Assembly (NCBI GenBank): GCA_013697295.1 | Contig: JACCXF010000005.1 | Span: forward strand, 1 to 45,812 | DNA: 45,812 nt | DNA from: Actinomycetota bacterium | GTDB lineage: Bacteria; Actinomycetota; CADDZG01; WHSQ01 | Direction: 5' to 3' | In this document: positions 33,340-38,618 of the stretch, in pieces | Layout: each line of letters begins with the position of its first letter | Numbering within the stretch: position 1 is the first letter of the stretch | Notes under the pieces: model-generated | Seen by the model: only the letters and a program-made list of their open reading frames with translations | What the model was told of the DNA's origin: nothing | Database searches by the model: none | Position numbers and translations under genes: made by a program

Positions 33340-33837
33340 GTGGTCACAACCAAAAAGATCCTGGCAACAACCGCCCTGGTCACCGCGGCCGCCCTTGTTT
33401 CGGCGAGCCCCGGGTCGGCCGATTCCCGTTGCTACAGACACGGCCCGGGCGAGAAACGCATGGTCCGAAAGATCAACCGGGCTCGAGGGCGGGCGGGAGC
33501 GCCCCACCTCGGCCGCGATCCGGAGCTCTCCCGGGTAGCAGGCGTTCATTCCAGGTCGATGGCCCAGGACAACCGACTCTTCCATACGCCGTCGGAGCTG
33601 CTGGCCTGGCGGGTGACACGCTGGAGCATGCTGGGAGAGAACGTCGCCTATGGGTCGACCGTCGGCGGTATGCACCGGCGATTCATGGCCTCTCCAGCAC
33701 ACCGGGGGAACATCTTGCGGTCGAGCTACAGGAACGTGGGCGTCGCCATCTCACGAGGCCACGGCCGGCGTTGGGTAACCGTGATCTTTGAGTCCAGACG
33801 GAACCCCGGGACCCGCATGGACATGCCCAGGTGTTAA
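33340..33837 (+). CDS. Secreted CAP/SCP-domain protein 1
   Basis: A 165-residue CAP-superfamily protein (allergen V5/Tpx-1 type). A Sec signal peptide covers about residues 1-28 (ending SPGSADS). CAP motifs include GVHSRSMA, the LGENVAY glutamate, PAHRGNIL and RWVTVIFES. There are only two cysteines, just after the signal and at the C-terminal residue, which would tie the termini together. GTG start at 33340 with GGAGGTGA upstream. Bacterial CAP proteins are of unclear function; cell-wall or secreted roles are typical. Paralogue of 33987 and 36981. No riboswitch was seen in its 161-bp leader. Confidence 0.87.
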   Translation: MVTTKKILATTALVTAAALVSASPGSADSRCYRHGPGEKRMVRKINRARGRAGAPHLGRDPELSRVAGVHSRSMAQDNRLFHTPSELLAWRVTRWSMLGENVAYGSTVGGMHRRFMASPAHRGNILRSSYRNVGVAISRGHGRRWVTVIFESRRNPGTRMDMPRC

Positions 33838-33890: not shown

Positions 33891-33984
33891 CCCACGCGAA
33901 ACGGCAAACCTGCGGCAACGCAGGGGCGCAAAGCCAGGGGCCCGCCATGAGAGCGGGCAGCCCAGCTACCGAACTGGGAGGAAG
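33891..33984 (+). ncRNA. GEMM / cyclic-di-GMP-I riboswitch in the leader of CAP protein 2
   Basis: The 149-bp leader of the next gene carries the diagnostic elements of the GEMM (c-di-GMP-I) fold: ACGGCAAACC, a GNRA-capped P2 hairpin (TGCG-GCAA-CGCA), then GGGGCGCAAAGCC, a second hairpin with GCCCGC/GCGGGC arms, and GCTACCGA. CCCA at 33891 and CCCAG at 33961 could each pair with CTGGG (33974-33978), next to the GGAGG ribosome site. This suggests control at translation. The ligand could be c-di-GMP or, in variants, cGAMP; the sequence alone does not settle it. Confidence 0.88.
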
Positions 33985-33986
33985 TC

Positions 33987-34505
33987 ATGAAACTAGGCAA
34001 GCGTCTCACCGGAGTCCTGGTGGCCACGGTCATCATGGTTGCGATGTTCCCCGGCCTCACCGCAAACGCAACGACCTCGCGGCCAGGTCACAACTGCTGG
34101 CGCTACAAGACCACCGAGCGTTCCTTCGTCCAGAAGATGAATGGAGCTCGCGATCGCGCCGGCCGTTCGAACCTGCATATCGACAAGCAGCTCACGAAGG
34201 TCGCCAGAGTGCACACCAAGGTGATGGCCCGCACGAACCGCCTCTATCACACCCCGTCGAGCACGCTCAGTAGTCGCGTCACCAAGTGGCGCATCCTCGG
34301 CGAGAACGTCGGGGTCGGCGGGAGCGTAACCTCACTGCACCAGGCGTTCATGCACTCCCCGGCGCACCGTGACAACGTCCTCTTCGGCCAGTACCGCCAC
34401 GTCGGGGTCGGCGTCAAGATGGACGGGAACACCATGTGGGTGACGGTCGTCTTCGAGTCTCAGGCCGATCCGGGCACAACATTGCGAGTCGCCCCCTCCT
34501 GCTAA
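33987..34505 (+). CDS. Secreted CAP/SCP-domain protein 2, riboswitch-controlled
   Basis: A 172-residue CAP-domain protein, close to protein 1 in the same order. A signal peptide covers about residues 1-30 (ending TANA). Motifs: RVHTKVMA, LGENVGVGG, PAHRDNVL and WVTVVFES, with the conserved His, Glu and His all present. Again just two cysteines, near the start of the mature chain and as the last residue. It is preceded by the GEMM riboswitch, so expression should respond to a cyclic dinucleotide. The ribosome site is GGGAGG, with the ATG six bases downstream. Followed by an intrinsic terminator. Confidence 0.9.
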   Translation: MKLGKRLTGVLVATVIMVAMFPGLTANATTSRPGHNCWRYKTTERSFVQKMNGARDRAGRSNLHIDKQLTKVARVHTKVMARTNRLYHTPSSTLSSRVTKWRILGENVGVGGSVTSLHQAFMHSPAHRDNVLFGQYRHVGVGVKMDGNTMWVTVVFESQADPGTTLRVAPSC

Positions 34506-36980: not shown

Positions 36981-37535
36981 CTAGGGGTAGCTGAAGGTGT
37001 TCCCGGGGTTGCGCCGGCTCTCGAAGATCTGGAGGACGTAGATGTGACCCCTCCTACGCTCGACTCCCACTCCGACGAAGCGCCAGCTGCCCATCATGAT
37101 CTGGCGATGGACGCTGGAGCGCCAGAACATCCGGAACATCGCGCGGCATCTGGGAGCTCGGCCAACCGTCTGGCCCAACCGTCGCCAGCGGGTTACTACG
37201 TTGGCGAGATTCCCGAGATGCCACGTCGTTCCCGCCCCGGCCATGTTCCGCGCATGTCGCCGGCCCACATAGCCCAGCTGCTTGTCCGACTCGAGCCGGC
37301 GCAGGCCACGATTCGCGCGACGGCGATTCAACTTGCTCATCAAGCAGCGCTCGGCGTGCGTGAAACGGTACCCACTTCCGGCCGCGCGCTGCCTCGCTTG
37401 TGAGGCCTCGGGGGTTGCCAGGGTGCCGACTCCAGTGAGTGCGACAACGAGCGACATGAGTAGAGCGGTGAGCGCTAGGTGACTTCGCGAAGCTAAGCGC
37501 AAGTTCGTCTCCCTTCGATCGGTCTCCCTCCTCAC
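36981..37535 (-). CDS. Secreted CAP/SCP-domain protein 3, divergent
   Basis: A 184-residue CAP relative with an N-terminal hydrophobic export helix (about residues 20-45, LALTALLMSLVVALTGVG). It keeps the architecture HARNMAG, RWRRLGQTVG, VHRQIMM and YVLQIFESRRNPG. The GEN glutamate that completes the CAP tetrad is Gln here (LGQT), and the HRxN signature is altered to HRQI, so catalysis or metal binding as in proteins 1 and 2 is unlikely. It lacks the C-terminal cysteine. Convergent with the solute-binding gene. No riboswitch motif was seen upstream. Confidence 0.82.
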   Translation of the reverse strand: MRRETDRRETNLRLASRSHLALTALLMSLVVALTGVGTLATPEASQARQRAAGSGYRFTHAERCLMSKLNRRRANRGLRRLESDKQLGYVGRRHARNMAGAGTTWHLGNLANVVTRWRRLGQTVGRAPRCRAMFRMFWRSSVHRQIMMGSWRFVGVGVERRRGHIYVLQIFESRRNPGNTFSYP

Positions 37536-38114: not shown

Positions 38115-38618
38115 ATGGCCAAAGAAGCTTCTTTCGACGTCGTCTCCGAGATCGACCTTCAGGAAGTAAGGAACGCCGTCGACCAGGCGCAGCGCGAGAT
38201 CTCGCAGCGGTTCGACTTCAAGGGAACCGGCTCTGCCATCGAACTGGCGAAAGATGGAGAGCGCGACACGATCGCGTTGAGATCGAACACCGAACAGAAG
38301 GTGAAGGATTGCGCCAAGGTGCTCGATGAAAAGCTCGTGAAACGAAAGGTCGCACTCAAGGCGCTACAGCGCGGCGACATCCAACCCGCCGCCGGAGGGA
38401 CTGCCCGTCAGGTAATCACGCTCAACCAGGGGATCTCCACGGAAAAGGCGCGCGAGATCGTCAAGCACATCAAGGGGATGAAGGTGAAAGCCCAGGCGGC
38501 GATCCAAGGGGACCAGGTGCGTGTCTCCTCGAAGTCCAGGGACACCCTCCAGGAGATCATCGACGCCCTGAAGTCGGAGGACTTCGGCATCCCCCTTCAG
38601 TACACGAACTACCGCTGA
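38115..38618 (+). CDS. yajQ: YajQ-family nucleotide-binding protein
   Basis: A 167-residue YajQ/UPF0234 protein made of two ferredoxin-like domains. Signatures: ASFDVVSEIDLQEVRNAVDQA at the start, SQRFDFKGT, and the ending DFGIPLQYTNYR. A Xanthomonas YajQ homologue has been reported to bind cyclic di-GMP and DNA, which suits the nearby GEMM riboswitch; other roles such as RNA binding are also known. It follows the receiver gene by 38 bp and overlaps the convergent HAD gene by ten bases. Confidence 0.93.
   Translation: MAKEASFDVVSEIDLQEVRNAVDQAQREISQRFDFKGTGSAIELAKDGERDTIALRSNTEQKVKDCAKVLDEKLVKRKVALKALQRGDIQPAAGGTARQVITLNQGISTEKAREIVKHIKGMKVKAQAAIQGDQVRVSSKSRDTLQEIIDALKSEDFGIPLQYTNYR

Follow-up and report, generated by a model that had tools for sequence, protein, structure and literature searches.

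The window analysed here, a stretch of 45,812 nucleotides from an Actinomycetota bacterium, contains two adjacent genes for CAP-domain proteins on the forward strand, of which only the second is preceded by a riboswitch aptamer. CAP1 (33340–33837, +; PF00188, E 5.2e-11) is the paralogue without a riboswitch, and CAP2 (33987–34505, +) encodes a secreted protein of 172 amino acids, which matches PF00188 with 42.8 bits against a cut-off of 21.1 (E 1.1e-10) and has at its N-terminus a stretch that by inspection resembles a signal peptide. CAP2 belongs neither to the YkwD subfamily (64.7 against 171 bits) nor to the DalA subfamily (27.7 against 200 bits). A third CAP gene, CAP3 (36981–37535, −; PF00188, 23.2 bits), which is absent from the initial annotation, also lacks a riboswitch; its orthologues occupy the same place in sister genera, as judged by synteny, and form a clade of their own on the CAP tree. 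The family model also gives a 15.5-bit hit within the CAP3 coding sequence; it does not contain the core and was discounted.

CAP1 and CAP2 had been described as nearly identical genes whose regulation had split. They share only 45% amino-acid identity, with one 96-nt stretch of 71% DNA identity, and are therefore old paralogues rather than near-copies. It is correct that the element stands before the second gene only: neither Rfam (E ≤ 5) nor the family-specific model, run with filters off (E ≤ 10), finds a GEMM copy in the CAP1 leader, and the decayed copy that was sought there is not detected by these searches either. The account of a split between twins is nevertheless weak, because the paralogues are old.

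The element upstream of CAP2 is a complete c-di-GMP-I (GEMM) riboswitch aptamer (33893–33973, +), which ends 13 nt before the CAP2 ATG. In a search of the whole window it scores 61.2 bits (E 1.1e-9) with RF01051, for which the curated cut-off is 35, in an alignment that covers model positions 1–87 of 87, and no other Rfam family exceeds its own cut-off anywhere in the window. The family model R1, which was built from family members with this sequence among them, scores it at 78.8 bits. The RF01051 score had been set beforehand as the check on the initial annotation, which had correctly recognized the riboswitch class, the CAP-domain gene directly downstream, and the order and positions of the conserved blocks: GGCAAACC (33903–33910), the P2 hairpin capped by GCAA, CGCAAAGCC and GCTACCGA.

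The fold is supported by covariation in an alignment of 40 elements, 39 from the family and one from another family of the same class, in which 91% of helix cells are paired and 13 of 20 pairs show two-sided changes, a result equalled by none of 500 shuffles. The P2 hairpin, CCUGCG-GCAA-CGCAGG with a GNRA loop (33909–33924, +), is paired in 97.9% of cells and has two-sided changes in 5 of its 6 pairs, while P3 (33932–33967, +), which is present in both the Rfam and the R1 structures, has them in 8 of 12 pairs and contains in the window a single mismatch (C-A) that recurs in most relatives. Covariation is seen in P1b, P2 and P3, the helices by which membership of RF01051 is recognized. Judged by its sequence, the window RNA is a genuine, ordinary member of the c-di-GMP-I class, with which it shares the fold, the conserved core, the ligand-contact bases and an exported-protein gene downstream; it differs from RF01051 in that its target is a CAP-domain gene and in that its aptamer directly abuts the Shine-Dalgarno sequence.

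The bases that contact c-di-GMP, G20, A47 and C92 in a numbering which we take to be that of Vc2, are all present, and the G at position 20 (33903, +) is the signature of c-di-GMP where sensors of cGAMP have A. Across the 62 class-level elements of alignment A2, the combination G20/A47/C92 occurs in 58, G/A/U in 4 and A20 in none. The host genome encodes enzymes of c-di-GMP turnover, with seven strong matches to GGDEF (E at or below 2e-38) as well as weaker ones, and three EAL matches; no match to the PilZ receptor was found in it. The sequence indicates c-di-GMP as the expected, putative ligand because of the three contact bases, the lack of A20 in any of the 62 elements and the presence of GGDEF and EAL domains in the host genome. 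That the aptamer instead responds to 3',3'-cGAMP, or to some other cyclic dinucleotide, is highly improbable: GEMM variants that sense c-AMP-GMP and control distinct genes are on record (PMC7266159, PMC9481103), but they carry A20, and this position is G in the window as in each of the 62 elements, so that assignment to the c-AMP-GMP (GEMM-Ib) riboswitches was rejected. Assignment to c-di-GMP-I-GGC (RF03167), a family of the same clan whose match overlaps the aptamer, was rejected as well, since the score of 55.6 bits lies under the gathering score of 59 and the window keeps A at position 47 where the variant model has G. In four other elements (L043, L056, L072 and L082) a U stands at the C92 position, a ligand-contact base, and their affinity or specificity may differ.

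The aptamer is followed immediately by the Shine-Dalgarno sequence GGAGG (33977–33981, +), 5 nt before the start codon, and the 3' strand of P3, CCCAG (33961–33965), is also the proposed anti-Shine-Dalgarno strand. The initial annotation had called for the alternative pairings of CTGGG to be predicted. In the ligand-free ensemble, CCCAG is predicted to pair with CUGGG (33974–33978) in a hairpin (33961–33978, +) with a probability of about 0.75; this hairpin dominates the predicted ligand-free fold, excludes P3, and overlaps only the first two bases of GGAGG, while the aptamer fold without ligand is less stable by about 3–5 kcal/mol. The same two strands are found in L047, L049, L057 and L065. 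Over 49 elements the Shine-Dalgarno sequence becomes more accessible on aptamer folding (0.46 to 0.60), but the gain is not above that of shuffled spacers (0.14 against 0.12, p 0.24). The ON direction of the CAP2 switch, which the folding model suggests, rests for this reason on the specific CCCAG/CUGGG hairpin.

The reading that is probable, with appreciable doubt, is that a c-di-GMP-I riboswitch in the CAP2 5' leader frees the Shine-Dalgarno sequence when ligand is bound and so raises translation. The window RNA would bind c-di-GMP, and binding would stabilize P1 and P3; once P3 had formed, its CCCAG strand would be unavailable to the CUGGG of the ribosome-binding site, the Shine-Dalgarno sequence would be released, and translation of CAP2 would rise at high c-di-GMP. 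The protein would then be exported within a sessile or surface programme, in company with those secreted proteins, type IV pilin included, whose genes have the same leader element. The same riboswitch could also act with the opposite sign, if the ligand-stabilized P1 and an aptamer lying 0–4 nt from the Shine-Dalgarno sequence hindered ribosomes and turned CAP2 off. This seems rather unlikely, although it is favoured by the position of the Shine-Dalgarno sequence, which starts between −2 and +4 nt from the aptamer end in 49 of the 62 class-level elements, and by an accessibility gain no larger than that of the shuffles. Helices 5' of a Shine-Dalgarno sequence are generally tolerated, and a spacer complementary to P3, CUGGG, is kept in five CAP-type leaders from four genera while the remaining spacer diverges, both of which speak against repression. 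The segment right behind the aptamer, CUGGGAGG, is conserved in the leaders of G000, G005, G006, G010 and G013, the contig of G010 stopping before a downstream gene can be identified.

The arrangement of CAP2 is not the only one by which CAP genes are joined to the aptamer. The Shine-Dalgarno sequence abuts the aptamer in family f1 and in most of f2, whereas an intrinsic terminator follows it in f3 (L082) and f17 (L007), the terminator platform being present in three families overall; the leaders of L009, L010 and L004 contain similar hairpins with T-runs, and in f12 no simple expression platform was seen. That one target is reached through different platforms speaks for selection acting on the regulatory link as such. 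A scan for sigma-70 promoters and terminators, which does not cover actinobacterial promoters, gave no informative site near CAP2. The leaders of pilin genes (L033:4079–4154 on G000:C30, L035, L040, L050, L054 and L066) form a separate GEMM-I subtype, whose aptamers end in ACCTGC/T rather than ACCGAA; in the roughly 100 nt that come next, GCAGGC segments recur, and these two features suggest a different platform.

The block of kinase, CAP, Na/Pi transporter, SBP, CAP3, response regulator and YajQ in which CAP2 lies is for the most part preserved throughout the family, and tandem CAP genes occur at the locus in two genomes (G000 and G005). At the syntenic CAP locus G000 carries the element before the second of its two CAP genes; G003, G006 and G013 carry it too, as does G005, where it precedes the first of two in a syntenic assignment made by neighbouring genes. 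It is absent in G001, G002, G007 and G008, and the syntenic CAP copy of G004 lacks it while another CAP gene of that genome has one. When "has GEMM" is mapped as a label onto a tree of 89 CAP domains, 9 changes are needed, and at least 5 are forced by well-supported branches; the element may have been gained, lost or swapped from one tandem CAP gene to the other.

Absence from the syntenic loci of several sister genera means that the element is dispensable there, which is the point in favour of reading the window aptamer as a decayed, non-functional leftover. Against such decay stand a full-length match, a core in which every base is intact, covarying helices and a conserved distance to the Shine-Dalgarno sequence, and it is given little credence here. 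The same comparison bears on YajQ (38115–38618; PF04461, NF003819 "YajQ family cyclic di-GMP-binding protein"), a family for which c-di-GMP binding has been reported (PMC4199771). The gene lies downstream as the initial annotation had noted, but its nearness is no evidence of a c-di-GMP circuit, because the block is conserved with or without the element; YajQ was accordingly rejected as the mark of a c-di-GMP gene cluster, the same block surrounding a CAP gene without a riboswitch in G001, G002, G007 and G008.

The pairing of the aptamer with a CAP gene recurs well beyond this locus. GEMM-I elements above the cut-off are present in 54 of 101 genomes of the phylum, with 104 matches in total, and the downstream gene was read for each. 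A CAP gene follows 26 of the 104, in 7 of the 20 element-bearing family-level groups (f1, f2, f3, f9, f12, f17 and f34); under an assumed CAP gene frequency of 0.5%, which is generous, the chance of this is 2e-36 counted per element and 4e-8 counted per family. Type IV pilins are the second target (19 of 104, and one further element with a masked start that is probably a pilin leader), and the other partners include subtilase, glycosidase, malectin and UDP-sugar dehydrogenase genes. Seen from the side of the target, an element stands before 12 of the 71 CAP genes listed in the 24 genomes of the class; the majority of CAP genes therefore lie outside GEMM control. Among the named public records that show the pairing are Actinomycetota and Acidimicrobiia MAGs (L193–L195, L197, L202, L211, L214 and L219).

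The initial annotation had regarded a CAP protein as an unusual target of a cyclic dinucleotide. It is not an isolated one, given the seven family-level groups, but no report of the pairing was found in the literature searched, including riboswitch and CAP-domain terms; coverage was partial, with few subscription papers, and the recurrent CAP target is for this reason only provisionally described as apparently unreported. Since the pairing extends over seven families, c-di-GMP signalling in Actinomycetota appears regularly to have CAP proteins among its outputs. The broader proposal, that secreted CAP proteins are a core and repeatedly acquired c-di-GMP output across the phylum, controlled by c-di-GMP-I riboswitches with differing platforms, co-regulated with pilins and undocumented elsewhere, is held with slightly better than even confidence. 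Bacterial CAP-domain proteins are widespread and, to our knowledge, mostly without a known role, and a link to c-di-GMP riboswitches that is shared with type IV pilins leads to the hypothesis that their place of action in the sessile state is the cell surface or the matrix. The regulon of c-di-GMP riboswitches is thereby also extended to Actinomycetota that are for the most part uncultured.

Among the targets of GEMM elements, extracellular and pilus proteins are typical. The c-di-GMP-I regulon of C. difficile, which comprises an adhesin, the metalloprotease PPEP-1, flagella and antisense RNAs, resembles the present case in placing c-di-GMP riboswitches on genes for secreted or surface proteins, but belongs to another phylum and has no CAP-domain gene in its target list (PMC11477304). 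The Bc2 riboswitch of Bacillus thuringiensis likewise precedes a secreted-protein gene, "cap", but its product is a collagen adhesion protein (PMC4933901), which in spite of the shared name is a different protein from those with the CAP (PF00188) domain.

Several further elements were observed in other settings. The third GEMM-I of the host genome (L034:2330–2406 on G000:C216) is flanked by selA and selB but lies on the strand opposite to theirs. A hairpin resembling a terminator faces the selA end, a long ORF in the sense direction is absent, and the arrangement is repeated in two other family genomes (L053:474–548 and L068:3062–3155, −). Because an element of G006 (L048), about 2.6 kb from selA, heads a secreted-protein gene, the selA-selB elements may be leftover leaders, or else c-di-GMP-responsive antisense or small RNAs. 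Elsewhere, GEMM elements stand in the leaders of genes for UDP-sugar dehydrogenases and of a gene for a response regulator (L059:3032–3109, L070:3087–3162 and L044:3022–3096, all −), so that exopolysaccharide and signalling genes may belong to the regulon. In G023 three elements, two found by Rfam and the third by the family model, lie within 2 kb (L089:763–840, 1824–1901 and 2575–2652, all −), and at least two of them precede similar small secreted proteins (MLETLFASLAxKIAAG...).
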